From contig NZ_JAAAPN010000002.1 of the NCBI RefSeq assembly GCF_009909205.1, positions 310,001 through 374,000 of the forward strand: a stretch of 64,000 nt of DNA, in the 5' to 3' direction. Below, piece after piece: positions 6,407 through 47,739 of this stretch; position 1 is the stretch's first letter, and each line of letters starts with the position of its first letter. The position numbers and the translations under genes were made by a program. This stretch comes from Aquabacterium fontiphilum. GTDB taxonomy: Bacteria; Pseudomonadota; Gammaproteobacteria; Burkholderiales; Burkholderiaceae_C. The notes beneath the pieces were generated by a model. It had not been told where the DNA came from and searched no databases. It saw nothing but the letters and a program-made list of their open reading frames with translations.

Positions 6407-6441
6407 GCGCGGGCTGAGCGAGACAACACGGAGTGCAAGCC

Positions 6442-6918
6442 ATGGGCATGATGGAAAAACTGGATGTGCAGGCGGATCTGGCGCGCGAGTACCTGACCTT
6501 CCGTCTGGGCAATGAAGAGTACGGCATCGATATCCTGAAAGTGCAGGAGATCCGCGGCTATGAGAACCCGACCCGCATCGCCAACGCGCCGCACTTTCTC
6601 AAGGGTGTGATGAACCTGCGCGGCACGATCGTGCCCATCGTTGACCTGCGCTTGCGCTTTGGCTGCGAATCGGCCGAGTACAACGGCTTCACGGTGTCGA
6701 TCGTGCTGCACATCGGGCAGCGCACCATCGGCACGGTGGTCGATTCGGTCAGCGACGTGATGGAGATCCCCGCCGAAGCGATCCGCCCGGCCCCCGAGAT
6801 GAACTCGGCCATTGACGCCACCTATATCCGGGGGTTGGCCCAGGTGGGCGAGCGGATGGTGATCCTGCTGGACATCGAGAGCATGCTGATGAGCCCCGAC
6901 ATGGGCCTCATCGACTGA
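6442..6918 (+). CDS. cheW: Chemotaxis coupling protein CheW
   Basis: A 158-residue CheW-domain protein that links chemoreceptors to CheA. Typical motifs are EYGIDILKVQEIRGYENPTRI, FLKGVMNLRGTIVPIVDLR and the C-terminal region around MVILLDIE. The ATG at 6442 was chosen because GGAG lies eight bases upstream; a GTG at 6433 is the alternative. It follows cheA by 35 bases and is closed by a strong terminator at 6921-6941, so it is the last gene of the core unit. No receptor or cheR/cheB gene lies beside it. Confidence 0.93.
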   Translation: MGMMEKLDVQADLAREYLTFRLGNEEYGIDILKVQEIRGYENPTRIANAPHFLKGVMNLRGTIVPIVDLRLRFGCESAEYNGFTVSIVLHIGQRTIGTVVDSVSDVMEIPAEAIRPAPEMNSAIDATYIRGLAQVGERMVILLDIESMLMSPDMGLID

Positions 6919-7469: not shown

Positions 7470-8351
7470 TCAGAATCTGGCGGTGGGCGCCCGGTACACA
7501 CTGGTCAGCTCGCCTTGCGGGCCGAACAATCGGGTGCGCCACGTGTCCTCCAGCGCAGCCGTCACCTGCTGACGAGGATGGAAGCGCCGCCGCCAGAACT
7601 TGGGCATGTGTCGCAGTACGTTGCTGATCAAAGCTCTCCGGCCGAAGAGTGCCTGGTAGCCGCGTCGGTTTTCCTGGCGATTGAACAGCTGCCCCTCCTT
7701 GATCAGCAGGCGCAACCAGGCAGCCATCACGGGCAGCAAGACGAAAATGCCCACCAGCCAACCCGCCTGTTTACGCTCCTTCTGGGTGCCACCAATCAAC
7801 TCGAACACGTCGTAGGCCACGGACTTGTGTTCAAGCTCCTCCAGCGCGTGCCAGTACCAGAGCTGGAGCATCTGAGGATTCGATGACTCGGCCAGCCGTT
7901 GGTTGGTCAGCCATTCCTCCGCCAGATGGGCGGTGAAGTGCTCCATCATGGTCGTGCAGGCCAGTTGCAGGCGAGGCGAGAATCGCTCAAGCTGGCGCAG
8001 ACCGAAGCGCACGTAGCGCGCCGGTAGGTCCACATCAAACCCGTGTTCACGGAAGACGTCGTTGAGGCGCTCGTGCTCACGCCCGTGCAGGGCCTCCTGC
8101 CCCATGAAGCCCGATACCTGGGCTTTGAGCACTGGATCCTGAATGCGATCCCGGAAGTGGCGCACCGACTCCATGAAGAACCGCTCGCCCGGCGGAAAGA
8201 TTCCGGAGAAAACGACGAACAGCAGGCTGGCCAATGGGTTGCCGTCGTAGAAGAAATAGCGCTCGGTATCGCGGGGAAATTGGAAATCGATATGGCGGGG
8301 CGGGATGCCGACCTCGGCGCTGGTGAGCGGGCGGGTGGTCGTGTCTGGCAT
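7470..8351 (-). CDS. Metal-dependent hydrolase family protein
   Basis: A 293-residue protein of the family annotated as metal-dependent hydrolase (PF10118). Clustered His/Glu motifs, EALHGREHERLND, MMEHFTAHLAEEW and WHALEELEHKS, look like a ferritin-type di-metal site on helices. A hydrophobic segment near residue 205 (AGWLVGIFVLLPVMAAWL) suggests membrane association. The start was placed at 8351 because GGAGAA lies just upstream. It is divergent from a TetR-type regulator with a palindrome between them, so it is the probable target of that regulator. The substrate is unknown. Confidence 0.75.
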   Translation of the reverse strand: MPDTTTRPLTSAEVGIPPRHIDFQFPRDTERYFFYDGNPLASLLFVVFSGIFPPGERFFMESVRHFRDRIQDPVLKAQVSGFMGQEALHGREHERLNDVFREHGFDVDLPARYVRFGLRQLERFSPRLQLACTTMMEHFTAHLAEEWLTNQRLAESSNPQMLQLWYWHALEELEHKSVAYDVFELIGGTQKERKQAGWLVGIFVLLPVMAAWLRLLIKEGQLFNRQENRRGYQALFGRRALISNVLRHMPKFWRRRFHPRQQVTAALEDTWRTRLFGPQGELTSVYRAPTARF

Positions 8352-8417
8352 GGCGGGTTCTCCGGCTGGGCGCTCACACGTACGACTGACGTGCACGATA
8401 ATCAGCGACAGTGTGTT

Positions 8418-8433
8418 CCGAATGTTTGTTCGG
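8418..8433. promoter_or_regulatory. Candidate TetR operator
   Basis: A perfect inverted repeat CCGAA-N6-TTCGG lies in the 118-base gap between the divergent hydrolase and TetR genes. A further TTCGGAT half-site follows at 8440-8446. Position and symmetry fit an operator controlling one or both genes. Confidence 0.5.
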
Positions 8434-8469
8434 ATTCAATTCGGATCACGTGTCCCTCGCCGCAGCCCG

Positions 8470-9129
8470 ATGCCCATGCCCCGCATTCCCCGACAGCAGC
8501 GCGCCAAGTCCACCGTCGATTCCATTGTGGAGGCCGGCTTCATCAGTCTGAGCCGACATGGGCTGGCCGGAACGACCACCAAGCACATAGCCGACATTGC
8601 CGGCGTCAGTGTCGGTTCGTTGTACGAGTATTTCAGGAACAAGGAAGCCATCTACGAGGCCATGCAGGCCCGTTTTGTACGGGACCTGATCGGTGTATTG
8701 CAGCCCCTGACGCCGCGCATCGTGCGGCTGCCGTTGACAGAGGCCATCCCGGTCCTTTTGTATGACGTGCAGGCGCTGCTGCTGCGTGACGACCAGCGCT
8801 ACCTGAGGTATGCCCGCGAGGTGTTCAACGCCGATGTGCGTTTTGAGCTCAACGATGTGTCTCGGTCCTTGGGCGACATCGTTGTGCAGTACCTGCTGCA
8901 TAACCCGCAGTACGCCGGTCTGCAGCGACTGGCGGCCATGAGCTACATCTTCGTCAATGCCGGGATGTATACCGTGATCCGCCACATGTCAGATCCCAAC
9001 CCGCCGGTGACGTATGACGATCTGGTGGATGGTTTGGCGCACATGGTCAGCCATTACGTCCGCATGGAGCGTCAGTTGGCCAGGCGACAGCAGGCGGCAT
9101 CCGAGGGGGGCGTGGCCCATCGCCCGTGA
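8470..9129 (+). CDS. TetR-family transcriptional regulator
   Basis: A 219-residue regulator. The N-terminal helix-turn-helix covers about residues 14-60 (STVDSIVEAGFISLSRHGLAGTTTKHIADIAGVSVGSLYEYFRNKEAIYEAM), the classic TetR signature. The C-terminal all-helical domain would bind an effector. The ATG at 8470 leaves a short basic N-terminus (MPMPRIPRQQRAK); the frame is open further upstream but would run across the operator-like palindrome. Divergent from the metal-dependent hydrolase. Confidence 0.9.
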   Translation: MPMPRIPRQQRAKSTVDSIVEAGFISLSRHGLAGTTTKHIADIAGVSVGSLYEYFRNKEAIYEAMQARFVRDLIGVLQPLTPRIVRLPLTEAIPVLLYDVQALLLRDDQRYLRYAREVFNADVRFELNDVSRSLGDIVVQYLLHNPQYAGLQRLAAMSYIFVNAGMYTVIRHMSDPNPPVTYDDLVDGLAHMVSHYVRMERQLARRQQAASEGGVAHRP

Positions 9130-9132
9130 GGC

Positions 9133-9591
9133 TCAGGGCGTCTGGAGAGCGTCGGCTACGCGCGCGTCAAGTTGCGCCAAAGGCACGGCAAGCCGGGCAG
9201 CCGCATCCGCGACGGTGCGCTGAGCCGGAGCCCAGACAGGGGCCGGCCAGCGGGCATCCCAGTCAAAACGGGCGATCACGTGCCAGTGCAGGTGCGGCAC
9301 CATGTTGCCCAGCGACGCCAGGTTGATCTTGCTGGGCTTGAGGTTGTCGCGCAGGACCGTTTCGACCTTGGCCACCGCCCGCATGAGTTGGCTGCGCTGT
9401 TCGGGCGGCAGATCGGTCCATTCAGCCACGTGTGCGTTCCAGATGACGCGGTAGAAAGCGGGATGATCCGCGTCTTCGGCACGAATGATGCGCAAGTCTG
9501 GCGTACGCAAGATGAGCACGCCACCCGTTTGTTCGCACAGCTCGCAGCCGGGCACCTTGCTTGTCTCTCCACCCGACAACGCCAAGCTCAC
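9133..9591 (-). CDS. HIT-family protein
   Basis: A 152-residue histidine-triad protein. The active-site motif HLHWHV is at about residues 100-105, and an N-terminal CELCEQ pair may bind metal. HIT proteins hydrolyse or transfer nucleotidyl groups; the nucleotide used here is unknown. Start GTG at 9591 overlaps the stop of the upstream FAD/Fe-S oxidoreductase as GTGA, so the pair is translationally coupled. Longer in-frame starts would run deep into that gene and were rejected. Confidence 0.88.
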
Positions 9592-12500
9592 ACCAGCACC
9601 CGTTCGATGCCACCGGCGTTGGCGCGATCCACATACTCGCGCATCCAGTTCTCGCCCAGGATCTGGTTGGCCATCTCGACGACGATGTAGTCCGCTTCGA
9701 GCAAGCCGTTCTGCGTGTCTTCGCCATAGCGGCTCAGGCCTTGCAGACACGCCGGGCACGAGGTCAGGATCTTCACGTTGTCCTTCGGCGCGATCAGGCC
9801 CTGCTCGCGCAGCGCCTTCTCACCCTTGCGGATCTCTTCTTCCTTGCGGAAGCGCACCTGGGTGGAGATGTCGGGGCGGTTCACGGCCAGCGTGCCGGCC
9901 TCGCCACAGCAGCGGTCCGACTTGATCACGCTGTCGCCCACGAGCGCCTTCACCGTTTTCATCGGATCCTGCAGCTTCATCGGCGAGTGGCAGGGGTCGT
10001 GATACAGGTAGGCGTCCTTGCCTTGCAGGGTGATGCCCTTTTCCAGCAGGTACTCGTGGATGTCGATGATGCGACAGCCCGGGAAGATCTTGTCGAACTG
10101 GTAGCCCTGCAGCTGGTCATAGCAGGTGCCGCAGCTCACCACCACCGTCTTGATGTCCAGGTAGTTCAGCGTGTTGGCCACGCGGTGGAACAGCACCCGG
10201 TTGTCGGTGATCATCTTCTCGGCCTTGTCGAACTGGCCGGCGCCGCGCTGCGGGTAGCCGCAGCACAGGTAGCCCGGCGGCAGCACGGTCTGCACGCCTG
10301 CATGCCACAGCATGGCCTGCGTGGCCAGGCCCACCTGGCTGAACAGGCGCTCCGAGCCGCAGCCGGGGAAGTAGAACACCGCCTCGGTATCGGCCGTGGT
10401 CTGCTTGGGGTCGCGGATGATGGGGACGTAGTCCTTGTCTTCGATGTCCAAGAGCGCGCGCGCCGTCTTCTTGGGCAGGCCGCCCGGCATCTTCTTGTTG
10501 ATGAAGTGAATGACCTGTTCCTTGATCGGGGCCGGGCCATGCGAGGCGGGCGGGGCAATCGTCTGCTTGCGCGCCACCACCTTCATCACGTCGTTGGCCA
10601 CGCGCTGCAGGGGCATGGCCACGTCCACCAGCGCCGAGCGGATCAGCTTGATGGTCTGCGGGTTGTTGGTGTTGAGCATGGCCATGCCTGCCGCGCCAGC
10701 CGGGCGGAAGCTCTTCTTGCCCATCTTGCTCAACAGGTTGCGCATGTTCATCGACACGTCGCCGAAGTCGATCTTGACCGGGCAGGGCGTGTAGCACTTG
10801 TGGCAGACCGTGCAGTGCTCGGCCACGTCCTCGAACTCGGACCAGTGCTCGATGGACACGCCCCGGCGCGTCTGCTCTTCGTACAGGAAAGCCTCGACCA
10901 GCAGCGAGGTGGCCAGGATCTTGTTGCGCGGGCTGTAGAGCAGGTTGGCGCGCGGCACATGCGTGGCGCACACCGGTTTGCACTTGCCGCAGCGCAGGCA
11001 GTCCTTGACCGAATCGGCGATGGCGCCGATGTCGCTTTGCTGCATGATCAGCGACTCATGGCCCATCAGGCCAAACGAGGGTGTGTAGGCCTCGGTCAGG
11101 TCGGCCGCGTGCACGTCGTCGCCCAATTGCTTCAGGGCGGCGCCGCGCAGCAGCTTGCCCTTGTTGAAGCGGCCTTCGGGGTCAACTTTCAGCTTGTAGG
11201 CCGTGAAGTTGGCGATCTCGTCGTCGGTCAGGAACTCGAGCTTGGTGATGCCGATGCCGTGCTCGCCCGAGATCACGCCGTCGAGCGAACGCGCCAGCTT
11301 CATGATGCGGGCCACGGCTTCGTGAGCCGTCTGCAGCATCTCGTAGTTGTCGCTGTTGACCGGGATGTTGGTGTGCACATTGCCGTCGCCGGCGTGCATG
11401 TGCAGGGCCACCCACACGCGGCCGCGCAGCACCTGCTTGTGGATGCGCTTGAGCTCGTCGATCACGGCCGCCAGCGCGGCGCCATTGAAGACCTTGGCCA
11501 GTTCGTCGCGGATCTCTTTCTTCCAGCTGGCGCGGATGGACCATGTCTGCAACAAGTTGAAGACCGTGTCCCCGACTGCCGGCGTGTAGCTGCCGTTGCG
11601 GTGCTGCTCGTAGCCCAGGGCCACCAACTGGTCTCCGACCTGGGCGAGTGGGGTGTCGAGGTGGTCGTACAGGAACTGCCACCGCTCACGCACCGCCTGC
11701 AGATGTTGCAGCGCGAAGCCGACCTTCTCGGCCAGGGCTTCGGGGCTGGGGAGTTCGGCCGGGTCTTCGACCTTGCCAAGCGGCAGGTTGCCGGCCTTGA
11801 ACAGCGCCTCGAACGCATCCACCAGCGCGAGCTTGTTGCGCAGGCTCAGCTCGATGTTGATGCGCTCAATGCCCAGGGTGTACTCGCCCATGCGCGGCAG
11901 CGGGATCACCACGTCTTCGTTCACCTTGAAGGCGTTGGTGTGCTTGGCAATGGCGGCTGTGCGCTTGCGGTCGGCCCAGAACTTCTTGCGTGCGTCGGCG
12001 CTGACGGCCACGAAGCCTTCGCCGCTGCGGCCGTTGGCCAGGCGGATGACCTCGCTGGTGGCGCGGGCCACGCGGTCTTCGTCATCGCCCACGATGTCGC
12101 CGATCAGCACCATCTTGGGCAGGGTGCCGCGCTTGCTCTTGGTGGCGTAGCCCACCGCGCGCAGGTATCGGTCGTCGAGGTGCTCCAGACCGGCCAGAAT
12201 GGCGCCACCCGGCTGCTTCATCTCCTCGAACATGAAGTCCTTGATCTCGACGATCGAGGGCACGGCTTCTGTCGGGTTGCCAAAGAACTCCAGGCACACC
12301 GTGCGCGTGTGGCTGGGCATGCGGTGCACGATCCAGCGTGCGCTGGTGATCAGGCCGTCGCAGCCTTCCTTCTGGATGCCGGGCAGGCCGGCCAGGAACT
12401 TGTCGGTGACGTCCTTGCCCAGGCCTTCCTTGCGGAACACGCGCCCGGGGATGTCGAGCTTGTCGGTGCGCAGGTGGGTCTTGCCGTCAGCCGCGTAGTA

Positions 12501-18653: not shown

Positions 18654-19049
18654 GTGTCAGATGCCGATCACGCTGAAGCCAGACCTGTCACCAAGGTGCT
18701 GGTGATTGATGACAGCAACACCATCCGGCGCAGCGCCGAGATATTCCTGAAGCAGGGTGGCTACGAGGTGGTCCTGGCGGAAGACGGGTTTGATGCCCTG
18801 TCCAAGGTCAACGATCACGAGCCGAACATCATCTTCTGTGACATCCTGATGCCTCGGCTCGACGGATACCAGACCTGCGCCATCATCAAGCGCAACCCGC
18901 GGTTCGCGCGTACACCGGTCATCATGCTGTCTTCGAAAGATGGCCTGTTCGACAAGGCGCGTGGCCGCATGGTGGGATCGCAGGATTACCTCACCAAGCC
19001 CTTCACCAAAGACCAGCTGCTACAGGCGGTGGCCCAGCACGCCGCCTGA
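18654..19049 (+). CDS. pilG: Twitching motility response regulator PilG
   Basis: A 131-residue receiver-only protein. Acidic pair D19/D20 (VLVIDDSNTIRRSAEIFL), phospho-acceptor D63 (FCDILMPRLDGYQTC), then LTKPF with the conserved Lys. The GTG start has a strong AAGGAGG site nine bases upstream. Identity as PilG rests on sequence style and order: PilG, PilH, PilI, PilJ and ChpA follow one another. In the Pil-Chp system of Pseudomonas, PilG is the ChpA-phosphorylated regulator that promotes pilus extension. Confidence 0.92.
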   Translation: MSDADHAEARPVTKVLVIDDSNTIRRSAEIFLKQGGYEVVLAEDGFDALSKVNDHEPNIIFCDILMPRLDGYQTCAIIKRNPRFARTPVIMLSSKDGLFDKARGRMVGSQDYLTKPFTKDQLLQAVAQHAA

Positions 19050-19120
19050 GCTTTCACCGCAAGCCAGACGGTGCGTGAGACCCGAGACAGGGCGCACGCG
19101 CCAACCTTTGTGAGCCAGTC

Positions 19121-19486
19121 ATGCCGATCCAGAAGATTCTGCTCGTCGACGATTCCAAGACCGAACTGCACGTGCTGTCCGAACTGCTGAGCAAGAAGGG
19201 CTACCAGGTCCGCACCGCAGAAAACGGCGAGGAGGCCTTGCGCCGCCTGCAGGAAGAGGTGCCCGATCTGATCCTGATGGATGTCGTCATGCCCGGGCAG
19301 AACGGCTTTCAGCTGACCCGAACCATCACCCGCGACCCCCAGTTCGCCAATGTGCCGGTGATCATCTGCACCAGCAAGAACCAGGAAACCGACCGTGTCT
19401 GGGGCATGCGTCAGGGCGCGCGCGACTACGTGGTCAAGCCCGTCAATCCTGACGAGTTGCTGGCCAAGATCAAGGCCTTCGGCTGA
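19121..19486 (+). CDS. pilH: Twitching motility response regulator PilH
   Basis: A 121-residue CheY-like protein. D10/D11 in LLVDDSKTEL, phospho-acceptor D54 in LMDVVMPGQNGFQL, Thr/Ser in CTSKNQ and Lys in VVKPVNP. It follows pilG by 71 bases and precedes the CheW-like pilI, as in other Pil-Chp loci. PilH acts against or balances PilG, favouring pilus retraction or acting as a phosphate sink in the best studied species. Confidence 0.93.
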   Translation: MPIQKILLVDDSKTELHVLSELLSKKGYQVRTAENGEEALRRLQEEVPDLILMDVVMPGQNGFQLTRTITRDPQFANVPVIICTSKNQETDRVWGMRQGARDYVVKPVNPDELLAKIKAFG

Positions 19487-19493
19487 CGCGCCC

Positions 19494-20036
19494 ATGGCAA
19501 ACAAGGAAGCCCTCAAGGCCCTTCAGGAACGGCTTGCGCAACGGCTGCAGGATGCCCGTCAGCAGGCGCCCGCGCGCAGTTGGCTGGCCGTCGACATCGC
19601 CGGCCAAGGCTTCCTGCTGCCGCTGGATCAGGCAGGCGAGATCTTCTCCCCCAGTGCGCTGCACGCCGTGCCGCACAGCCGCCCCTGGTTCCTGGGTGTG
19701 GCGAACTTGCGGGGGCAACTTCATGGCGTGGTCGATCTGGCCAGCTTCCTGGGCATGCCCCGCCTGCAGCCGGCGTTGCCGGCTGTGCCCGAAGGGCGCG
19801 ACCCGAGCCGTCTCGTGGCGTTCAACGCAGCGCTTCAGGTCAACGCCGCGTTGTGGGTCGACCGGTTGCTGGGCCTGCGCAACGCCGCTGCGTTGCAGCT
19901 TGCGCCGCAGGGCGGGGCAGGCGAGAAGCCGGGCTTCATGGGGCAGACCATGCGCGACGATCAGGGGCGCACCTGGTATGAACTCAATCTGGCCGCGCTG
20001 TCGGCCGACGACGCTTTTCTGAGAATCGACGCCTGA
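19494..20036 (+). CDS. pilI: CheW-like coupling protein PilI
   Basis: A 180-residue CheW-domain protein that would join the PilJ receptor to ChpA. The domain begins around residue 30 ([22 protein letters not shown]) and contains [26 protein letters not shown] at 19494 lies seven bases after the pilH stop. The N-terminal 27 residues are a charged helix ([21 protein letters not shown]). Confidence 0.9.
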
Positions 20037-20086
20037 CCGGCCCAGAGGGCCCGCAGGGTGGCAACAAACGTTTGGAGTGTGGACAC

Positions 20087-22420
20087 ATGAGCATCCTGAG
20101 CCGCATCAAGGATCTGGGCAAGAAGCAGGACGAGGAAGAGGTTCAGCCCGACGCCTTGAGCACCGAAGGCATGGTGACGGCCAATGGCGCCCAGGCGGTG
20201 GACACGCAGTCTGCCGGGTCCACGATCTCTCCACCCTCCACGACGGCGTCGACCGACTCCATCATTTCGGAAGCTGCGCCATCCGAGTTTCCGCCGGATT
20301 ACCTGGATGCCCGCAACACGGAGTTGGCGCCGGACGCCGCGTTGTCCGAGCCGCGCACGGGCCTGCCGCTGATCGGCCATCTGCGTCTGGACCGGCAGCA
20401 GCGCGCGCTGGCGGGTGCCTTGGCTGTCGGTGTGGTCGGGCTCGTCATCAGTGCGGTGCTGTCGGTCAACTCCGCCGACCGTCGTGCAGCCCAGGCCGGT
20501 GCGACCGGTCAGGCGCTCATGCAGTCGCAGCGTCTGGCCAAGTCGGTGTCACAGGCGCTGGTGGGCCGCGATCAGGCTTTCCAGGAGGTGTCCGAGAGCG
20601 CCCAGGTGTTGGCCACCAACGTGCGTGGCCTGGCTGAAGGCAACCCCGAAGCCGGGATTGCGCGGCTGGGCGGCGATGCGGCCGAGGCGTTGACGCCGCT
20701 GCTGCCGCTGGTGACCCGTGCCGAACAGAATGCCAAGTTCGTGCTGGATCAGAAGCAGACGCTGACCAAAGTGAGCGCCGCGCTGCGCGAGGTCAATGGC
20801 CAATCGTCCGAGTTGCTGGATCTGGCGGAAGGCATCGCCACAACCCGCATCGAGGGGGGCACGCTGACGGCCGCCGAGGCGGCTGCACTCAACCAGCTTG
20901 TGATGCTGACCCAGCGCATTGGCAAATCGGCCAACGAGTTTCTGACGGTGGAGGGCGTGTCCACTGAGGCCGTGTTCCTGCTGGGCAAGGACTTGAACGC
21001 GTTCAAGGAACTGGCCGAGGGCCTGCTCAACGGCAACGCAGATCTCGGCCTCACCGCAGCGCGCAATCCGGACATCAAAGCGCAGTTGCAAGACCTGCTC
21101 AAGATTTTCGAAGACACGCGCGCGCAGGCGTCTTTCATTCTGGGCTCGCTGCAGGGGCTGGTGGCCGCTCGCGACGCGCAGGTGGCCGTGATCGACGACA
21201 GCGAACCTCTGCGCAAGGGCCTCGAAGCCGTGCAGACGCGGCTGGCAGAGGGGGCCGGCATCGGTGGCATCAACGTTGCGCTGATCTTGCTGTCGCTGCT
21301 GGTCACGGGTTGTGCGGCCTACGGCCTGCTGCGCGTCTTCCTGACCGACCAGCGTCACCGCGCCCAGGTTGCAGAGTTCCAGCGCCAGGAGGCCGAACGC
21401 CAGGAGCGCGAAGCCAAGCGGGTGAACGATGCCAACCAGGCGGCCATTCTGCGTTTGATGAATGAGCTGCAACAGGTGGCCGAAGGTGACCTGACGCAAC
21501 AGGCCACTGTGACCGAGGACATCACCGGCGCCATCGCCGACTCGGTGAACTTCACCGTGGAGGAACTGCGCACACTGGTGTCGCAGGTGCAGAGCACCGT
21601 GCAGCGCGTGACCGACACCACCGGCCAGGTGGAAGCCACGTCGACCGAGCTGCTGGCCGCCTCCGACGAGCAACTGCGCGAGATTCGCGAAACGGGCGAA
21701 TCGGTGCTGCGCATGGCCGGCCGAATCAACGACGTGTCCGGACAGGCCCAGCAGTCTGCCGAAGTGGCCCGCCAGTCGCTGAGTGCGGCCGAATCCGGCT
21801 TGCTGGCCGTGCAGAACGCCATCGGTGGCATGAACACCATCCGCGAGCAGATTCAGGAAACCTCCAAGCGCATCAAGCGGCTGGGCGAGTCGTCTCAGGA
21901 GATCGGCGAAATCACCGAGCTGATCTCCGACATTACCGAACAGACCAACGTGCTGGCGCTGAACGCCGCCATCCAGGCGGCGTCTGCAGGTGAAGCCGGT
22001 CGGGGCTTCTCGGTGGTGGCCGAAGAAGTGCAGCGCCTCGCTGAACGCTCGGCTGATGCGACCCGCGAAATTGCTGCACTGGTGCGCACCATTCAGACCG
22101 ACACGCAAGACGCTGTGGCCGCCATGGAGCGCTCCACGCAAGGTGTGGTCGAAGGGGCCCGCCTGTCTGACGCCGCCGGCACCGCACTGAACGACATCGA
22201 CCGCGTGTCGCGTCGTCTGGCCGAGCTGATTGAAGAGATTTCCGATCAGGCACTGAAAGAGGCAGAAAGCGCCAATGTGGTGGTGGCCAACATCCAGCAC
22301 ATCTTTGCCGTGACCGAGCAGACCGGTGAGGGCACGCGCTCCACCACCCAGCTGGTGCGAGAGCTGTCCCGGATCGCCCAGGAACTCCAACAGTCGGTGG
22401 CCCGATTCAAGATTGCCTGA
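20087..22420 (+). CDS. pilJ: Methyl-accepting chemotaxis protein PilJ
   Basis: A 777-residue chemoreceptor of the Pil-Chp system. An unusual cytosolic N-terminus of about 100 residues comes before TM1 (about 107-128, [19 protein letters not shown]). A helical periplasmic PilJ-type region follows, then TM2 near residue 400 ([24 protein letters not shown]), a HAMP-like linker and the signalling hairpin with tip [37 protein letters not shown] lies ten bases before the ATG. No methyltransferase gene (pilK) accompanies it, so adaptation enzymes must be encoded elsewhere or be absent. Confidence 0.93.
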
Positions 22421-22423
22421 TCC

Positions 22424-28674
<6,251 letters not shown>

Positions 28675-28675
<1 letters not shown>

Positions 28676-39356: not shown

Positions 39357-39381
39357 TCCGCGCCTTCGCTCTACTCCAAGG

Positions 39382-39413
39382 GCCGCTGACGTCGTCGACG
39401 CAGCGGCTTTTTT
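39382..39413 (+). terminator. Rho-independent terminator after the desaturase
   Basis: GCCGCTG (39382-39388) and CAGCGGC (39401-39407) form a 7-bp stem with a 12-base loop, followed by TTTTTT. It insulates the following kinase cluster from read-through. Confidence 0.88.
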
Positions 39414-39579
39414 CATGGCGTCGTCTCGTTCCCGGGCTCGCACCGCAATCACGTGTCGTGCTGCAGCGTGAACGATGTCGCGCGTTTGTCCGTTTTGGGC
39501 CGGGCAGACGCCGCTTTTCCGTTTCAGTTTTGCGTGCCTGTCCCGTAATCTGGGATGGACTTCGACAAGGCAGAACAAG

Positions 39580-41877
39580 ATGGACGAAGCAGTGATGCGC
39601 CAGACCGGACTGCAGCAGCGGGGTGCGTCGACACAGAGCGGCGCAGGGGCCTCTCCGAACCCGATGCGCAAGATCATCATCATGGTCGGCGTGGCCATTC
39701 TGGTGTTCCTCGGCGTAACCACGCTGAGCGTTCAGAACTCGTTTCGCAGCAGCGACCAGCTGACCGGCGTGAAGGAAGTCTATTTCCCGGTGCTGCAGAA
39801 GATCGAGGCCAACATCGTGCGCCTCGACAAGATGGAAGAGCTGTTCATGCGCTCCGTCATGATTGGCGAGACCGATCCGCTTGACGAGGCGCAGGACTTC
39901 TATCAGCAGGCAGACGCAGCCTTTGTCGAGATCGAGACCATCTATCCGGCCCGTAAGGCAGACTTGGAGGCCTTGCGCAAGGAGTTCCGGGCCTACAACG
40001 AGCTGGCGCTGTCGACTGCCAAAGCCTTTCTGGACAAGGCCGACATCGACATGCCCACGCAGACGCGCCGCATGAACGATGCGCTGAACGCGTTGCGCGA
40101 GTCCATCAAGCGCTTCCGCGAATCCAGCTACGACAACTTCGTCAGCACGCTGGCCGACTCGCAGGCCACGGTCAAGCTCAATCTGTACATGGGCATGGCG
40201 CTGGGCGTGATGAACCTGTGTTTCATGGGGGTGCTGGTCTTCTTCATTCGCAACAACGTGCGCATGATGGCGGTCATCGCGGAGCAGAACGCGACCCTGG
40301 AGCGGCGCGTCGCCGAGCGCACATCGCAGCTGCGTCAGAAGACGAACGACATCCAGGCCATGTTGCAGAACATGCCGCAGGGCGTGATGACGGTGATGCC
40401 GGGTGGGGTCATCCATCCAGAGTACTCAGCCTATATGGAGGCGATCTTTGGCACCCGCGAGATTGCGGGACGCCAGGTGATGGATCTTGTGTTCGCCAAC
40501 TCCAGTGTGGGCTCCAATGACCTGTCACAGGTGGATGCGGCGATCGGTTCGTGCATCGGCGAAGACGTGATGAACTACGAGTTCAACGCCCACCTGCTGG
40601 TCACCGAGTTTGACAAGACCCTGCCTGACGGCAGCGTCAAGAGCCTGGAGCTGAGCTGGTCGCCGATCGCCGACGACAACGATGTGGTCGAAAAGCTGAT
40701 GCTGTGCGTGCGCGACGTCACCGAGCTCAAGCGGCTGGCGAGCGAAGCAGGTGCCCAAAAGCGCGAGCTGGAAATCATCGGGCAGATTCTGGCGGTCAGC
40801 CAGGAGAAGTTCCAGGAGTTCATCGACAGCGCCCACCGCTTCATCGCCGAGAACGAAACACTGGTCCGCGAGGCCACCGGCAAGGATGCGGACACCATCG
40901 GCCTGCTGTTCCGCAACATGCACACCATCAAGGGCAACGCACGCACCTACGGCCTGCTGCACATGACCAATATCGTGCACGAGACCGAGCAGGAGTACGA
41001 CGCCCTGCGCAAGGACGACGACAAGCCGTGGGACGCGGACCACCTGCTGGCCCAGCTGGCTGCAGTCAAAGCACTGGTCGACGAGTACCAGAAGGTCAAT
41101 GAGGTCAAGCTGGGCCGCAAGGGCCCGGGCCGCCGTGGCAGCGTGGAGCGCTTCCTCATGGTCGAGAAGGACCAGGTGGCCCGCGCGCTGGCCTTGATCG
41201 AGTCGGCCCACCAGGCAGAAAGCCGTGACGTGCAGTCCGTGCTGAAAGAGGTCGGGCAGACCCTGCAGCTCATCGGCACCGACAGCATGTCTCACGTGCT
41301 GGCAGGCATTGTCGAGTCCTTGCCTTCGCTGGCACGGGAGCTGGGCAAGGAACCGCCCAAGGTCACCATCGACGACCATGGCATCGCCGTGCGCAACCAG
41401 GTCACCGGTCTGCTGAAGAACGTCTTCACCCACCTGTTGCGCAATGCCATGGACCACGGCCTGGAAACGGCGGAGGCACGGCTGGCCGCCGGTAAGGATC
41501 CAGCCGGACACATCCACCTGACACTGGCGCTGGACGGCGACACGCTGACGATGCAATTGGGCGACGACGGTCGCGGGCTGGCTGTGGGCAAGATCCGCGA
41601 GAAGGCCATGGCCCGAGGTCTGGTCAGCGAGGGCGCGCTGCCCGATCCGGAAACCGCGGCCAACCTGATCTTCGCCTCCGGTTTCTCCACCGCTGAACAG
41701 GTGACCGAGGTATCGGGGCGCGGTGTGGGGATGGATGCCGTCAAAGGCTTCCTGCAGAAGGAGGGCGGCGACGTGGCCATTCGCTTCACCGGCGGGCGCG
41801 CTGAGGACGAGTGGCGCCCGTTCGAGCTGTTGATCACGCTGCCTGCCCGTTTCGCCGTGAAGACCGGTGTGGCCTGA
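39580..41877 (+). CDS. Membrane-bound CheA-like kinase, four-helix sensor
   Basis: A 765-residue kinase. TM1 (about 30-50) and TM2 (about 200-223) enclose a helical periplasmic domain of four-helix-bundle style. A coiled coil (LERRVAERTSQLRQKTNDIQ), a PAS-like domain (about 260-375), an Hpt domain with H448 (NMHTIKGNARTYG) and a CheA-type ATPase follow (N622 in LLRNAMDHG; DDGRGL; SGFSTAEQVTEVSGRGVGMDAV). The chain stops right after the ATPase: the CheW-like P5 domain of CheA is missing. The output half closely matches the 44760-47630 kinase. The likely partner is the CheY in the cluster. AAGG precedes the ATG. Confidence 0.88.
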   Translation: MDEAVMRQTGLQQRGASTQSGAGASPNPMRKIIIMVGVAILVFLGVTTLSVQNSFRSSDQLTGVKEVYFPVLQKIEANIVRLDKMEELFMRSVMIGETDPLDEAQDFYQQADAAFVEIETIYPARKADLEALRKEFRAYNELALSTAKAFLDKADIDMPTQTRRMNDALNALRESIKRFRESSYDNFVSTLADSQATVKLNLYMGMALGVMNLCFMGVLVFFIRNNVRMMAVIAEQNATLERRVAERTSQLRQKTNDIQAMLQNMPQGVMTVMPGGVIHPEYSAYMEAIFGTREIAGRQVMDLVFANSSVGSNDLSQVDAAIGSCIGEDVMNYEFNAHLLVTEFDKTLPDGSVKSLELSWSPIADDNDVVEKLMLCVRDVTELKRLASEAGAQKRELEIIGQILAVSQEKFQEFIDSAHRFIAENETLVREATGKDADTIGLLFRNMHTIKGNARTYGLLHMTNIVHETEQEYDALRKDDDKPWDADHLLAQLAAVKALVDEYQKVNEVKLGRKGPGRRGSVERFLMVEKDQVARALALIESAHQAESRDVQSVLKEVGQTLQLIGTDSMSHVLAGIVESLPSLARELGKEPPKVTIDDHGIAVRNQVTGLLKNVFTHLLRNAMDHGLETAEARLAAGKDPAGHIHLTLALDGDTLTMQLGDDGRGLAVGKIREKAMARGLVSEGALPDPETAANLIFASGFSTAEQVTEVSGRGVGMDAVKGFLQKEGGDVAIRFTGGRAEDEWRPFELLITLPARFAVKTGVA

Positions 41878-41909
41878 GGGCTCATCCCACTTCACCTTCC
41901 TGTCGCGCA

Positions 41910-41917
41910 GCCGATAA
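41910..41917 (+). promoter_or_regulatory. Exact FliA-type -10 octamer GCCGATAA
   Basis: GCCGATAA matches the sigma-28 -10 consensus at all eight positions, 43 bases before the mini-receptor start. The -35 position 15 bases upstream reads TTCA rather than TAAA, so this is only a possible internal promoter for the rest of the cluster. Confidence 0.35.
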
Positions 41918-41960
41918 CGGGACAGACTGATTGGAATTCAGGACAAGGCAAAGGTTCAAG

Positions 41961-42689
41961 ATGTGGCTAGACCTCGGATTGTTCTTGATCGGCGGCCTCG
42001 CTGGCTGCCTGATCACTGGCTGGTGGATGCGACGCATGCTGCGCGCACGCGGTGAACTGGTGCCGGCTGCCGTCGCCGCAGAACGTGAGCGGGAGCTGCT
42101 GGTGCGCATCAGCGAGCTCGAAGGCGAGCTGCGTGAGCACCAACAGACGCTGGAGTCCCGCCACGCCACGTCTCAGGCCGAACTCGCCCAACTGCGTGAC
42201 AACCTGGAGCAGCAGCTTCAGCATGTGCAAAGCGGCGCAGCAGGTACGCGCGAGCAGGCCTTGGTAGCCTGCAACCAGCTCGCTGAGTCCATCACCAAGC
42301 TGCTGGGTCTGATCAAGACCTTCGAGCGCTGGCATGCGGACATGAGTGTGCTACTGACCCACAACCGCGAGATGCACGAGCGCAATGACGAGTTTGCCGC
42401 CATCGTCCGCCAGGTCGTCATCGTCGCGCTGAATGCGTCGATCGAAGCGGCGCGAGCCGGGGAGATGGGCAAAGGTTTTGCGGTGGTGGCCAATGAGGTG
42501 CGCGCGTTGGCCAATCGGGCTGAGGCCTTGTCGAATGACTACCGCAATAACCTCCATAAGAACGACCTGATCACCACCACGACCTTCCAGGACCTGCAGG
42601 CTGGCGGCAAGATGATCATTGGTGCCGTCACAGAGCTGCAGGTCATCAACAACCGGACGCGCAGCGCGCTCGTGACCGAGCTTGCGTGA
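41961..42689 (+). CDS. One-TM mini-chemoreceptor-like protein
   Basis: A 242-residue protein with one N-terminal membrane helix (residues 3-21), a coiled coil (about 35-95) and a chemoreceptor hairpin tip at 156-186 (ALNASIEAARAGEMGKGFAVVANEVRALANRA). There is no periplasmic domain, no HAMP, and the helices on either side of the tip are far shorter than in normal receptors. It could scaffold or switch the two membrane kinases, although these lack the CheW-like domain that normally docks receptors. Position between the kinases and CheX supports a role in this system. Confidence 0.8.
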   Translation: MWLDLGLFLIGGLAGCLITGWWMRRMLRARGELVPAAVAAERERELLVRISELEGELREHQQTLESRHATSQAELAQLRDNLEQQLQHVQSGAAGTREQALVACNQLAESITKLLGLIKTFERWHADMSVLLTHNREMHERNDEFAAIVRQVVIVALNASIEAARAGEMGKGFAVVANEVRALANRAEALSNDYRNNLHKNDLITTTTFQDLQAGGKMIIGAVTELQVINNRTRSALVTELA

Positions 42690-42695
42690 CACCCC

Positions 42696-43250
42696 ATGAT
42701 CAGTCAGCAAGCCAAGGACGCGTTCGAGTTCTTTGTGTGCAATGCGCTCAAGGGCGCGTTGGTGTCGGCACCGGACGACCGCTGCGAGGTGACGGTCATA
42801 GACGACCCCGGCGAGATCAAAGAGCAGAAGTTCGTGCTGTTGACGGTCTCGTCTTACCTCTTCCGCGCGATGACGCTGGTGCACTTTACGTTGGATGCGC
42901 CCACGCGCTTGCACTTGGCTGCCATCAACCGCGCTGAGGTGGGCAGCATGAGCCAGGATGACTTCTTGGACGTCATCGGCGAGGTGGGCAACATCTTCTG
43001 CGGCGCGCTCAACCGGGACCTGGCGCACCACTTTCCCTACCTGGGCATGTCCACACCCAATGTGCTGGACCGCCACTGCATCGACTACCTCGACGAGCTG
43101 GATGCGAGCTACATCCGGCATTTCCGTGTCGTCGTCAATGACGCGCTCACGCTGCATGCCAGCCTGTGCGTCTGCGATTTCGCCGACATCGATTTCCATG
43201 TCGACACCACCGCGGTCGAAGAGAGCAACGGCGAGCTGGAGTTGTTCTGA
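42696..43250 (+). CDS. CheX-type phosphatase
   Basis: A 184-residue protein with the CheC/CheX/FliY catalytic pattern D-x3-E-x2-N at D92, E96 and N99 (LDVIGEVGNIFCGALNRDL), followed by P121 in GMSTP. In the family these Glu and Asn residues remove phosphate from CheY-P. The C-terminus is GELELF. It starts six bases after the mini-receptor and precedes a second CheX-like gene. Its probable substrate is the CheY at 44288-44656. Confidence 0.82.
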   Translation: MISQQAKDAFEFFVCNALKGALVSAPDDRCEVTVIDDPGEIKEQKFVLLTVSSYLFRAMTLVHFTLDAPTRLHLAAINRAEVGSMSQDDFLDVIGEVGNIFCGALNRDLAHHFPYLGMSTPNVLDRHCIDYLDELDASYIRHFRVVVNDALTLHASLCVCDFADIDFHVDTTAVEESNGELELF

Positions 43251-43291
43251 GCGTAGCTCGCATCTTCCATTCATCACGAGAGGAATCACCC

Positions 43292-44260
43292 ATGGTCGAA
43301 GCCGCGCAACTGGTCAGCAAGGTCCTGGTACTGGACGATGACCCTGCCGCGACTCAGCGCATCAAGGCCTTCTGCGACGACAACAACCTGGTGGGCGTGA
43401 AGACGCAGTCAGCCAGCGTGATGTCGGTGCTGCGCTCCAACGTGGACCTGGGTGCGATCTTTCTGTCAGAGACCTATCGCAACGACGGTGAAGACGCGCT
43501 CGCGTTCGCGCGGGAGATCCACACCATTCGTCCTGAGTTGCCGGTGTTTCTGCGTCGCGAAGCCTTTTCGCGTCTGGATGATCTTTCCGAGCGCGACCAG
43601 ACCTTGTTTTCCAAGGCCTACACGCTCAATGACATCGAGGCGCTGGTCCCGGTGCTGTCGGAAACCATCTTCAGTCTGGTTTACCCCAATGGGCTGGTGC
43701 GCGGCATTACCGAAATCACCAAGGCGGCACTCGAAAGCCAGTTCAAGGGCGTGGAGGTGCACACCGAGGCGCCCTACATCGTCCGCGATCGGATCATCTT
43801 TGGTGAGCTGTTCACGCTGATCCCGCTGGAGAGCAACTGGTGCCGCGGCTACATGATGCTGCAGACAGAAGAAAAGCCCCTCATCGGATTCGTCGAGCGC
43901 GACAAGACCCACATCGTTACCGATGCGGTCAACTTTCGCGACATCAATCACGTGCTGGGCGAGGTCACCAACCTGGTGTGGGGGTCGTTCAAGAACCGCT
44001 ACATCGCTTTCGAGCCACTCGAAGGCCGGCAATCGCAGGTGCCCATCATCGTCAATCACCTGCACCGCTACATCTCATTTGGATCCGAGGACCCGCAGCT
44101 GTGCTTCAAGTACATGCTGACCGACACCGACGGTGGTGGTCCTTCGCTCGTGATCTATCAGCGCTTTGTTTTCAACCTCAGCTGGGCTCCGGAGAAATTC
44201 AAGGAGAACGAGGCCGTGGCAGAGGATCTGTTTGACTCGGGTGAGCTGGAGCTCTTCTGA
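43292..44260 (+). CDS. Pseudo-receiver fused to CheX-like domain
   Basis: A 322-residue fusion. Residues 10-125 are receiver-like: acidic D15-D17 (VLVLDDDPA) and a Lys near 108 (FSKAY) remain, but the phospho-acceptor position reads S59 (IFLSETYR), so normal phosphorylation is not expected. Residues ~140-310 are CheX-like with E224 and N227 (HVLGEVTNLVWGSF); the usual Asp/Ser at E-4 is H220. It ends GELELF like the CheX upstream. GAGAGGA lies ahead of the ATG. It may be an adaptor or a phosphatase regulated through its receiver. Confidence 0.78.
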   Translation: MVEAAQLVSKVLVLDDDPAATQRIKAFCDDNNLVGVKTQSASVMSVLRSNVDLGAIFLSETYRNDGEDALAFAREIHTIRPELPVFLRREAFSRLDDLSERDQTLFSKAYTLNDIEALVPVLSETIFSLVYPNGLVRGITEITKAALESQFKGVEVHTEAPYIVRDRIIFGELFTLIPLESNWCRGYMMLQTEEKPLIGFVERDKTHIVTDAVNFRDINHVLGEVTNLVWGSFKNRYIAFEPLEGRQSQVPIIVNHLHRYISFGSEDPQLCFKYMLTDTDGGGPSLVIYQRFVFNLSWAPEKFKENEAVAEDLFDSGELELF

Positions 44261-44287
44261 ACTGTTACTGCATGAGAGGTGAACACC

Positions 44288-44656
44288 ATGGCACAAGTGC
44301 TTGTCGTCGATGACTCTGCCACCGTCCGCAACGAGGTCGGTGATTTCCTGAAAAAGAACGGCCTGGACGTGATCACGGCCGTGGACGGCCGAGACGGTCT
44401 GGCGAAACTCAAAGCCGATCCGCGCGTCAAGCTGATCGTCAGCGACGTGAACATGCCCAACATGGACGGCCTGACCATGGCCGAGAAGATCCGGGGCGAG
44501 TTGGGCAACAGCACGGTCAACATCATCATGCTGACCACCGAGAACACCCCGATCATGAAGGAGCGCGGCAAGGCCGCGGGCATCAAGGGGTGGATCGTCA
44601 AGCCCTTCAAGGGCGATGCCGTGATCGCCACATTCAAGAAGCTGGCCGAAGGCTGA
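44288..44656 (+). CDS. CheY-like response regulator of cluster 3
   Basis: A 122-residue receiver-only protein with D8/D9, phospho-acceptor D53 (IVSDVNMPNMDGLTM), Thr in MLTTENT and Lys in IVKPF. All residues for phosphorylation are present. It lies between the CheX pair and the second membrane kinase, so it is the natural output of the system. GAGAGGTG precedes the ATG. It is distinct from the CheY at 3796. Confidence 0.88.
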   Translation: MAQVLVVDDSATVRNEVGDFLKKNGLDVITAVDGRDGLAKLKADPRVKLIVSDVNMPNMDGLTMAEKIRGELGNSTVNIIMLTTENTPIMKERGKAAGIKGWIVKPFKGDAVIATFKKLAEG

Positions 44657-44683
44657 TTTTCTCGGCAGCTCGGCACGCCACAT

Positions 44684-44730
44684 GCAAGACAAGCCCGCCT
44701 GGAAGGAGACACCACGCGGGCTTGTCTTGC
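44684..44730 (+). promoter_or_regulatory. Perfect 15-bp stem-loop ahead of second membrane kinase
   Basis: GCAAGACAAGCCCGC (44684-44698) and its exact complement (44716-44730) enclose a 17-base loop containing GGAAGGAGA. It lies between the cheY stop and the kinase ATG at 44760. The 3' arm is not followed by a T tract, so an mRNA control or partial terminator is more likely than a full terminator. Confidence 0.7.
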
Positions 44731-44759
44731 GCCATCGCTTTGTCACAGGAAGCCGAATC

Positions 44760-47630
44760 ATGATGTTCTTCCGTGTTTTGATGATGACCCTGCTGGGTCT
44801 GCTGCTGGCGCTGCCGGCAAGGGCAGCCGATGCCCGTCCGGGTTGCGACTCCTGTCGCATCGACGTGCGGTCGCTGGATGAGCCAGTCAAGCTGGCCGGG
44901 ACGTGGCTGTTCACGCGCGATGACCGCCCCGAGAACAAGAATCCCGGCATCAGCACGCAGGACTGGAAGCTCGTCAAGGCGCCCGGCCCCTGGAAGGAAG
45001 CTTATGGCGACGGCAAGATCTTCACGGTCGGCTGGTACCGTGGCGAGATGCAGTTTGACCCGGCCCTGGTGGGTCAGGAGGTGGTGTTGCTGGTCAACAC
45101 CTACATGGCGCGCATGAATGTCTACGTAGACGGCCAGGAGGTGTACCAGCGCCCCCGCAACATCAACGTCGAGCGCTATTACTCGATTCAGCCCATCCCG
45201 GTGCGCTTCAAGGTGACGCAGCCCTCGCATGTCGTCGCGTTCCGTGTAGAGACCCCGCTGATGACGGGCGTGTACCAGCTGCCGTTCGAGATGCATCGCT
45301 ATGACCAGGCCGACACCAGCCTGGCCTGGTGGCAGATCTGGGGCGGTGAGGCCCGCACGATCGCGGCTTACACGATGCTGGTGTTCGGCCTGTTCTTCCT
45401 GCTCGTGTACTCCAAGACCCAGTACCCGCTTTATCTGATGGCTGCTCTGGCGGGTATCTTGATCTTCCCGTTCTTCGGGTCGCCAGGTGACTACTTCCTG
45501 AAGCTGTTCAGCCCCGAGGTGATGCTCTACTCGCACTACACCGGGCTGATGGGGGTGTTCATGTTCTACATGTTCGCCCAGTACATCGCCGGCCGCTTTC
45601 TTCCAAAGCTGAACTGGCTGTTCGGCGCGATCTATCTGGGCCTGTGTGTCACCATCGGCAGCATGATGTGGGTTCCCAATGTGGAGCTGTTCCAGAAGGT
45701 TCGCCCCATCCTCTTCATTCTGACCCTGGTCTCGGGCTTCATCGGGCTCGGCATTCTGAGCATGGCCTGGCGTGAGGGCAAGAGCGGCGCAGCCACTCTG
45801 GTGCTGGGCATCTGCGTGTTCCTCGTCACCGGCGTGAACGACGTGGCCCTGGCCCTGGGCAAGATCTCCTCTGTCTCGCTGATCTTCAGTGGCACGGTGT
45901 TCTTCGCCTGCACCATGATGTATGTGGCTTCCACCCGGTTTGCCAACACGTTCATGGAGAATCGCCAGCTGGTCAAGGACCTCAAGGTCATCAACGACAA
46001 CCTGGAAGACCTCGTCTCCGAGCGCACCGAACAGCTGCGTGAGAAGACACAGGACATCGAGAGCATGCTGCAGAACATGCCCCAGGGGGTGCTCACGATC
46101 ACCGGCCAGAACCAGGTCCACCCCGAGTATTCGGCTTACCTGGAGACCATTCTCGAGACCAAGGACATTGCCGGTCAGAGCCTGATGGCACTGATGTTTG
46201 CCAACACCAACCTCGGCTCGGACGCGTTGTCGGCGGTGGAGACCGCGGCGGGCGCCTGCATCGGCGAAGACGTCATGAACTTCGAGTTCAACAGCCACCT
46301 GATGGTGACCGAGTTCGACAAAACCATGCCGGATGGCCGGGTGAAGTCGCTGGCCTTGAGCTGGTCACCCATCTGCGACGACAAGGACACGGTCGAGAAA
46401 CTGATGATCTGTGTGCGCGATGTCACCGAACTCAAGCGCCTGGAACAGGCCGCCAGCGAGCAAAAGCGCGAACTGGACATCATTGGCGAGATCCTGGCCG
46501 TGACACAAGAGAAGTTCTCCGACTTCATTGATGGCGCGCGCGGCTTCCTGGCCGAGAACCGCCAGCTGATCGAGCGCACGCAAACCAAGGACCTGGACGT
46601 GGTGGGCCTGCTGTTCCGCAACATGCACACCATCAAGGGCAATGCGCGCACTTATGGTTTCGTGAACCTGACCAACCTGGTGCACGAAGCCGAGCAGGCT
46701 TACGACGTGCTGCGCAAGGATGCGGAATCCGTTTGGGATGGCGCGGCCCTGCTGCACGCGCTCGACCAGGTGCAGGCCATGGTCGACGAGTATGCTCGCA
46801 TCAACGAGCATGTGCTGGGCCGCAAGGGGCCCGGCCGCCGGGGCAGCGTCGAGAAGTACGTCATGGTCGAGCGTCACCAGGTTGCCGAGTCGCTGGCCAT
46901 GCTGTCGAGCGTGGATCTGGACGATGTGGTGGCACTGCGTCGTGCACTCAAGCAGGTCGGCCTGACGCTCAGCCAGATCGGCACCGAGCGGCTGGATGCC
47001 ATCCTCGCCGGACAGGTGGATTCGCTGCCCTCGCTGGCGCGTGAATTGGGCAAAGAGCCGCCCGTGGTCCGGGTGGACGACCGCCAGATCGTGGTCCACA
47101 ACCAAGTGGCGCCGCTGCTCAAGAATCTCTTCACGCACCTGCTGCGCAACAGCATGGACCATGGCCTGGAGCCTGCGGACGTGCGCCGGGCGGCTGGCAA
47201 GCCCGCTGCGGGTCTGATCCAGATCGACATGGCGCTGGATCCCGAGCGCCTGCAGATCCGGTTGCGCGATGACGGCCGTGGGCTGGCGCTGGGGCGCATC
47301 CGTGCGCGGGCCATCGAGCAAGGGCTGCTGAGTGAGGATGAAGCCCGATCCGATGTCGAAGTGGCTCAGACCATCTTCCGCTCGGGCTTCTCGACGGCCG
47401 AACAGGTCACCGAGGTGTCGGGCCGTGGGGTCGGCATGGACGCCGTCCGTGGCTTCCTGCAGAAAGAGGCCGGCGAGATCGACATCCGCTTCCTGGATGA
47501 CAAGGACGGGGCCGAGTACCGCGCGTTCGAGCTGGTGGTGACCTTGCCTGCGCGCTTTGGCACGCAACTCGACCACGCCACCGTCGAGCGCATGGCCGCA
47601 CCGGGCGTGACGCCTGCCGTGGCTGGCTGA
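44760..47630 (+). CDS. Membrane-bound CheA-like kinase, 7TMR-DISM sensor
   Basis: A 956-residue kinase. Signal peptide (about 1-23), an extracytoplasmic jelly-roll-like domain (about 25-200; WLFTRDD, GWYRGEMQF, NVYVDGQEVY), seven membrane helices (about 205-400), a coiled coil (LVSERTEQLREKTQDIE), a PAS-like domain, an Hpt domain with H623 (NMHTIKGNARTYG) and a CheA-type ATPase (N797 in LLRNSMDHG; RDDGRGL). It ends shortly after the ATPase without a CheW-like domain. From the coiled coil onward it is a close paralogue of the 39580-41877 kinase. Ligand unknown. Confidence 0.88.
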   Translation: MMFFRVLMMTLLGLLLALPARAADARPGCDSCRIDVRSLDEPVKLAGTWLFTRDDRPENKNPGISTQDWKLVKAPGPWKEAYGDGKIFTVGWYRGEMQFDPALVGQEVVLLVNTYMARMNVYVDGQEVYQRPRNINVERYYSIQPIPVRFKVTQPSHVVAFRVETPLMTGVYQLPFEMHRYDQADTSLAWWQIWGGEARTIAAYTMLVFGLFFLLVYSKTQYPLYLMAALAGILIFPFFGSPGDYFLKLFSPEVMLYSHYTGLMGVFMFYMFAQYIAGRFLPKLNWLFGAIYLGLCVTIGSMMWVPNVELFQKVRPILFILTLVSGFIGLGILSMAWREGKSGAATLVLGICVFLVTGVNDVALALGKISSVSLIFSGTVFFACTMMYVASTRFANTFMENRQLVKDLKVINDNLEDLVSERTEQLREKTQDIESMLQNMPQGVLTITGQNQVHPEYSAYLETILETKDIAGQSLMALMFANTNLGSDALSAVETAAGACIGEDVMNFEFNSHLMVTEFDKTMPDGRVKSLALSWSPICDDKDTVEKLMICVRDVTELKRLEQAASEQKRELDIIGEILAVTQEKFSDFIDGARGFLAENRQLIERTQTKDLDVVGLLFRNMHTIKGNARTYGFVNLTNLVHEAEQAYDVLRKDAESVWDGAALLHALDQVQAMVDEYARINEHVLGRKGPGRRGSVEKYVMVERHQVAESLAMLSSVDLDDVVALRRALKQVGLTLSQIGTERLDAILAGQVDSLPSLARELGKEPPVVRVDDRQIVVHNQVAPLLKNLFTHLLRNSMDHGLEPADVRRAAGKPAAGLIQIDMALDPERLQIRLRDDGRGLALGRIRARAIEQGLLSEDEARSDVEVAQTIFRSGFSTAEQVTEVSGRGVGMDAVRGFLQKEAGEIDIRFLDDKDGAEYRAFELVVTLPARFGTQLDHATVERMAAPGVTPAVAG

Positions 47631-47673: not shown

Positions 47674-47706
47674 AAAAAACCCGCCTGGTCGCCCGGCGGG
47701 TTTTTT
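47674..47706. terminator. Bidirectional terminator
   Basis: AAAAAA, CCCGCC (47680-47685), loop, GGCGGG (47695-47700), TTTTTT. The A tract on one side and T tract on the other let it serve both the rightward kinase cluster and the leftward rpmB-rpmG transcript. Confidence 0.9.
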
Positions 47707-47739
47707 CATGCGGCCTGCATGTGCAGGCTGCGAGCCGAA

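Follow-up and report, generated by a model that had tools for sequence, protein, structure and literature searches.

In the canonical MCP-CheW-CheA-CheY chemosensory system, the kinase CheA is taken to need its P5 domain, CheW and receptor arrays. A membrane sensor combined with PAS is a common layout of histidine kinases, and 7TMR-DISM histidine kinases are a known sensor kinase type. The phosphatase CheZ carries an acidic C-terminal peptide ending in Phe, which docks CheY. In the excerpts of PMC10782961, a CheW domain is reported for 100% of its CheA set, and HATPase together with CheW serves as the identifier. The excerpts of PMC8789113 deal with a Vibrio cholerae CheX-family gene that was mutated in one suppressor strain and describe no cluster like the one reported here. 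No named pathway or description of this module was found in the open-licence literature, where most subscription journals are missing.

The window (the whole 64,000-nucleotide stretch of Aquabacterium fontiphilum DNA that was analysed) contains six ORFs on the + strand, in which the Pfam domains claimed in the preliminary description were found and to which its positions 39580, 42696, 44288 and 47630 fit. The start codons of five of them (K1, mini-MCP, RecX2, CheY and K2) were set from relatives and differ from the mechanical ORF list; 44760 is most likely the start of K2. The genes and the hairpins between and around them are as follows.

39378..39416, +: terminator-like hairpin with U-run (annotated as 39378..39413), upstream edge, 3' of the desaturase gene; z -5.2 (folding)
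39580..41877, +: K1; TM, periplasmic helical stretch of ~150 residues, second TM, PAS, Hpt (His codon 40921-40923), P3-like part, P4 ATPase; stops at the P4/P5 boundary
41961..42689, +: mini-MCP; single N-terminal hydrophobic segment, coil, MCP hairpin without QTN; second invariant patch E122, W124, N135, N142 / D202, F209, Q213
42696..43250, +: CheX1; divergent stand-alone CheX; ExxN (E96, N99); GELELF C-terminus
43292..44260, +: RecX2; pseudo-receiver (Ser59/Glu60 at the expected acceptor Asp site) and CheX (E224, N227); GELELF C-terminus
44288..44656, +: CheY; CheY-type single-domain response regulator; acceptor Asp, Thr, Lys
44684..44730, +: hairpin with 15-bp arms, without U-run, between cheY and K2; -34.6 kcal/mol, z -8.1 (folding)
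44760..47630, +: K2; N-terminus resembling a signal peptide, extracellular part, 7TMR-DISM_7TM, PAS (from similarity to K1), Hpt (His codon 46626-46628), P4 ATPase, without P5
47668..47712, +: terminator-like hairpin with U-run (annotated as 47674..47707), downstream edge, 3' of K2; z -3.9 (folding)

We interpret these genes, with a probability of roughly 0.55, as a sensory phosphorelay of chemosensory type that works without CheW and adjusts flagellar behaviour. The same desaturase and thioredoxin reductase genes flank the module in many Aquabacterium relatives. The idea that the six genes form one unit between two strong terminators has some support at the edges, where both hairpins fold well and have U-runs, although a simple terminator scan showed no excess (5 found against 6.6 expected from shuffles), with only the upstream edge hairpin listed. 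The hairpin in the gap between cheY and K2 is stronger than either of them. Given this strong hairpin at 44684-44730, the six genes may not share a single transcript, and K2 may be expressed apart from the other five genes. No comparable perfect stem was found when the gap was folded in two K2 relatives.

A one-genome-per-species scan found 209 relatives, and 80 named loci were kept. They yielded 80 RecX2, 73 mini-MCP, 71 kinase and 75 CheX1 proteins, which were thinned by likeness and length to 52, 47, 32 and 48, respectively; the alignments comprise 39 RecX2, 33 mini-MCPs, 29 kinases and 37 CheX1 picked by hand, plus the window's own proteins. Recurrence in other genomes, which the preliminary description had named as a check on its proposal, was found: all five gene types are present in 70 of the 80 loci, and CheX1 occurs in 13 of 300 genomes in an even sample of the order. 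The module was seen in Aquabacterium, Herbaspirillum, Paraburkholderia, Caballeronia, Pandoraea, Dechloromonas, Pseudogulbenkiania, Paludibacterium, Methylobacter and others, mostly Betaproteobacteria; Methylobacter and a few other bins that carry it are presumably gammaproteobacteria. The module is real and widespread, is no accident of one genome and extends beyond Burkholderiales.

The commonest gene order is kinase-mMCP-CheX1-RecX2-CheY (58/80 loci). Among the module genes, RecX2 and CheY are consecutive in 74 loci and mini-MCP and CheX1 in 71, the gap between the latter two ranging from -4 to 55 bases (a 4-base overlap in 22). Five of the ten incomplete loci (L073, L078, L081, L110, L116) run into contig ends, and three (L083, L095, L136) have RecX2 only, with both flanks covered. 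L138 is a 3.4-kb contig with a lone RecX2, labelled Akkermansia and perhaps misbinned. L119 (Burkholderia multivorans WS-FJ9) has all five parts, with the kinase split over two frames (3256-6423, 4805-5671), and falls outside the 70, its mini-MCP lying inside an ORF counted as kinase; the kinase may be broken in this strain.

RecX2 is present in 20 of the 42 genomes of the genus Aquabacterium (alone in a few) and in 5 of 398 genomes of a phylum sample. At the 12 order-sample loci outside the window's own genome, kinase, mini-MCP and CheY are found in 12/12 and RecX2 in 10/12; its absence from two of these clusters, together with its solitary occurrence in several genomes, counts against the phosphorelay reading. 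Since some of the lone RecX2 genes are in genomes that also carry the full module, RecX2 may act on its own. RecX2 without other module genes in the covered DNA was seen in L161 (6010-6990), L162 (6506-9580), L163 (6962-7933) and L164 (2948-3973).

Pfam identifies Hpt (9.6e-8), HATPase_c (1.3e-9) and, weakly, PAS_9 (0.0072, below its cut-off) in K1, and 7TMR-DISM_7TM (3.3e-7), Hpt and HATPase_c in K2. Among 31 kinases (29 relatives plus K1 and K2), Hpt and HATPase_c were found in all 31, HAMP in 21, 4HB_MCP_1 in 15 and 7TMR-DISM_7TM in 3. The earlier claim that the sensors are built into the kinases is well supported. A CheW domain in either kinase would have spoken against that description; Pfam found CheW in none of the 31 kinases and, at E <= 10, in none of the six module proteins, K1 and K2 included. 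The phospho-His and the ATP-box residues are invariant over the 31 aligned kinases. The chains stop after P4: 68 of the 71 kinase ORFs have an LP motif 6-49 residues before the C-terminus (the remaining three gave no clear call), which is a crude sign that no P5-like part follows.

The AlphaFold model of K1 (mean pLDDT 80.9, pTM 0.38, so that the relative placement of its domains is unsure) was matched by Foldseek to CheA P3P4 (4xiv, 237 columns, TM by target 0.60) and to CheA P4 structures. P3-like helices align with CheA both in this model and in a profile comparison (the CheA profile comprised ten CheAs and, as eleventh member, the P5-less kinase of L112), although Pfam detected H-kinase_dim in none of the 31 kinases. 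This lack of an H-kinase_dim match is a point against our reading, as is the periplasmic region of K1, delimited by two hydrophobic segments ~150 residues apart, in which Pfam found no sensor. A P4 tree, intended to show where the kinases stand relative to CheA and ChpA, left 13 of its 19 inner branches open. The constant presence of Hpt and HATPase, the lack of CheW and the sensor domains define the kinase as a CheA truncated at the P4/P5 boundary and joined to a sensor.

If the locus were a plain two-component system, K1 and K2 would be membrane histidine kinases of the usual kind, accompanied by CheX and MCP pieces that are decoration or decaying remnants. Its layout of membrane sensor and PAS, and the fact that RecX2 and family kinases also occur alone, would agree with this, but no HisKA match was found in these kinases, their core is Hpt plus a CheA-type P4, catalytic and tail residues are invariant over distant relatives, and the gene set is constant; we regard this explanation as very improbable. 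A divergent family kinase (~44% identity) is encoded in L043 at 8016-9650 (G008), with no module partner matched within 16 kb.

Two CheA-type kinases, as first described, are both present in the window, but one kinase is usual and the second is a local extra. Of 17 stretches from the genus, 10 have the module with K1 (seven with the downstream side visible and no K2, three ending at contig ends), two carry it with K2 but lack K1, and five have a kinase without the module in the DNA covered, three of these being interrupted by contig ends. K1 and K2 form two neighbouring groups beneath one supported fork (100/94), and the second kinase therefore appears to be a duplicate bearing another sensor. 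Within the genus, the mMCP-CheX1-RecX2-CheY set is the same whether K1 or K2 accompanies it, an indication that the two kinases feed a single CheY.

Both CheX proteins match Pfam CheX below its curated cut-off (CheX1 0.0022, RecX2 1.6e-5); 25 of 38 CheX1 and 40 of 40 RecX2 sequences reach Pfam CheX at 0.01. When the CheX1 profile was compared with the PDB, CheX structures were matched weakly (best 0.084). In the RecX2 model (mean pLDDT 75.5), a CheX domain, whose fold was supported by Foldseek, comes after a receiver-like domain. The ExxN motif is present in 38/38 CheX1, and in RecX2 its Glu is kept in 39/40 (one Asp) and its Asn in 40/40. Where receiver strand 3 ends, position 59 of RecX2 is Ser in 20 of 40 sequences and Asp in one, and position 60 is Glu in 36 of 40 and Asp in two; with Ser59/Glu60 placed there by the model, the acceptor Asp appears to be missing in the RecX2 of the window, and it is perhaps kept in up to three relatives.

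The two CheX proteins share a C-terminal hexapeptide. It ends all 75 CheX1 proteins (GELELF in 53), and the same type of tail ends 79 of 80 RecX2 (GELELF in 47, GELDLF in 22; the 80th ends at a contig end), counts that include many close kin. In a thinned CheX1 set (identity to the first down to 30%), the Gly, the second Glu and the final Phe of the tail are as invariant as the catalytic residues. That two different proteins carry so strict a tail suggests that both dock to the same partner, most likely CheY, with the kinase or the mini-MCP as alternatives.

The mini-MCP (Pfam MCPsignal 5.9e-16) is the weakest of the 26 MCP domains of its genome. It consists of a single N-terminal hydrophobic segment, a variable coil and a strongly conserved hairpin. 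The canonical tip FQTNILALNA, which contains the QTN tip motif, was present in all 12 own MCPs that were read of the 26; in the mini-MCPs the T position is Val, Met or Ile in 34/34, and none of the 34 therefore has QTN. The second invariant patch (E122, W124, N135 and N142 on one helix, D202, F209 and Q213 on the other, each in 34/34) is about 25-45 residues away from the turn on each helix, and its two halves would face each other. TFQD was found within 90 residues after the tip in none of the 12 own MCPs read, and the patch may mark a partner site that has no counterpart in those 12; the coupling of the mMCP and cheX1 genes suggests CheX1 as the partner. An FQD motif in the mini-MCP was weighed as a CheZ-like site and rejected, because Gly stands where CheZ has Gln, four residues after the Asp.

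The earlier statement that CheW, CheR and CheB are absent is accurate for the six module proteins (Pfam), and CheW exists elsewhere in the cell. The genome has seven CheW domains, 26 MCP domains and one FliM, and the window itself contains two further clusters, one cheY-cheA-cheW (3796-6918) and one Pil-Chp-like (18696-28675; in both clusters CheW and kinase domains come from searches and the other labels were given by eye). No adjacent MCP, CheR or CheB was noticed by eye at the former. With its own genes, and with CheW and MCPs elsewhere in the genome, the module lives in a cell with ordinary arrays.

The mini-MCP might plug into canonical MCP-CheW-CheA arrays as part of an accessory arm, with the fused kinases as an additional phosphate source or the mini-MCP recruiting CheX to the arrays as a local phosphatase. 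This would be in line with its kept hairpin turn and with MCP-like genes near L066 and L067. CheW was found in all 13 positive genomes outside the genus, so coupling to arrays is possible and gene content leaves array independence unproven; at L112 (Methylobacter psychrophilus), a CheW-bearing CheA-type kinase (3-2069) directly adjoins the module upstream. These two observations favour the accessory arm and, like the MCP-like genes near the cluster in 2 of 12 loci, weigh against the phosphorelay reading. The absence of QTN from all 34 mini-MCPs and of P5 from the kinases argues the other way, as does the detection of CheW in the covered DNA of L112 only among the 80 loci, many of which cover <7 kb per side. 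The CheW profile used there was built from seven own CheWs, six of which were recovered well in a leave-one-out trial, the PilI-like one scoring 0.0047, above threshold, so a divergent CheW near some loci could be missed. On balance, an accessory arm seems unlikely to us.

The CheY of the module (Pfam Response_reg 2.8e-23) is 70-86% identical to relatives from other families. Acceptor Asp, Thr, Lys and the acidic pair are present in 12/12 of the CheY rows listed, and its best PDB matches are chains named CheY. FliM was found in 13/13 positives of the order sample against 199/300 genomes overall (hypergeometric 0.004, uncorrected for kinship) as well as in another positive genome, from the phylum sample; PilT reached its cut-off in 12 of 14 genomes, both others being from one family, which favours the flagellum over pili as output. 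As FliM is present in all 42 genomes of the genus, with or without RecX2, the genus is uninformative, and the evidence for a flagellar link comes from the broader set of related genomes. Output through surface behaviour (pili, exopolysaccharide or c-di-GMP), as in alternative-cellular-function chemosensory systems, has for it that the module CheYs of relatives are 40-44% identical to the CheY of the other che cluster of the window and that the Pil-Chp-like cluster is ~10 kb away. We consider it improbable, given FliM in all positives examined and PilT below its cut-off in two, and because the neighbours at 12 loci of other genera match the pil/chp proteins of the window only weakly.

For the phosphorelay, we infer the following course of signal, docking and output. 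The built-in sensor (of 4HB/HAMP type in many relatives and 7TMR-DISM in K2) and, as a further input, PAS would set the autophosphorylation of the Hpt His by P4, and the phosphate would move from Hpt to the CheY of the module. CheX1 and RecX2 would reset the system by dephosphorylating CheY-P via ExxN, held by their shared tails to a common partner, most likely CheY, much as the C-terminal peptide of CheZ docks CheY. The mini-MCP, its gene paired with cheX1, may anchor or gate CheX1 at the membrane, and K1 and K2 would be two sensor versions feeding one CheY. CheY-P would then act on the flagellar motor beside the canonical arrays and not through them; for this bypass of arrays, the anatomy of the module is the ground.

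More tentatively, at somewhat less than even odds, the module may represent a separate CheW-free signalling class, in which a receptor-CheA fusion replaces the array, the mini-MCP has been repurposed so that it holds or gates a CheX phosphatase instead of controlling a kinase, and the G-E-L-E-L-F C-terminal peptide common to the two CheX proteins is a new CheY docking tag. That it forms a class of its own within chemosensory signalling is plausible. A conserved module with a CheA core, without P5 and CheW, would show that a fused sensor can replace array control, and it would be a minimal system in which to ask what arrays add; two ideas also become testable, that of a tail common to both phosphatases and that of an MCP hairpin with a role other than serving CheA.

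Compared with the canonical system, the module is alike in its CheA-type Hpt and P4, its CheY and its MCP hairpin protein, and differs in that its genes do not include CheW, the kinase has its own sensor and no P5, and the mini-MCP lacks a ligand domain and QTN. The sensor of K2 resembles that of 7TMR-DISM histidine kinases, whereas its Hpt and P4 are of the CheA type and no HisKA match was found. The CheX tails resemble the acidic CheZ peptide that ends in Phe, although fold and catalytic motif are unrelated and tail docking would apply here by analogy. CheX/CheC phosphatases (PDB 3h4y, 3iic, 1xko; CheX-CheY complex 3hzh) share fold and ExxN with the module proteins, but the module has two, one of them fused to a pseudo-receiver, and both carry a G-E-L-E-L-F-like tail. 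With CheA as characterized in the excerpts of PMC10782961, the module kinases share a phosphotransfer domain, HATPase and, in the model, P3-like helices; they lack the combination of HATPase and CheW and are thus not CheA by the definition given in those excerpts, whereas by anatomy they are CheA minus P5 plus a sensor.
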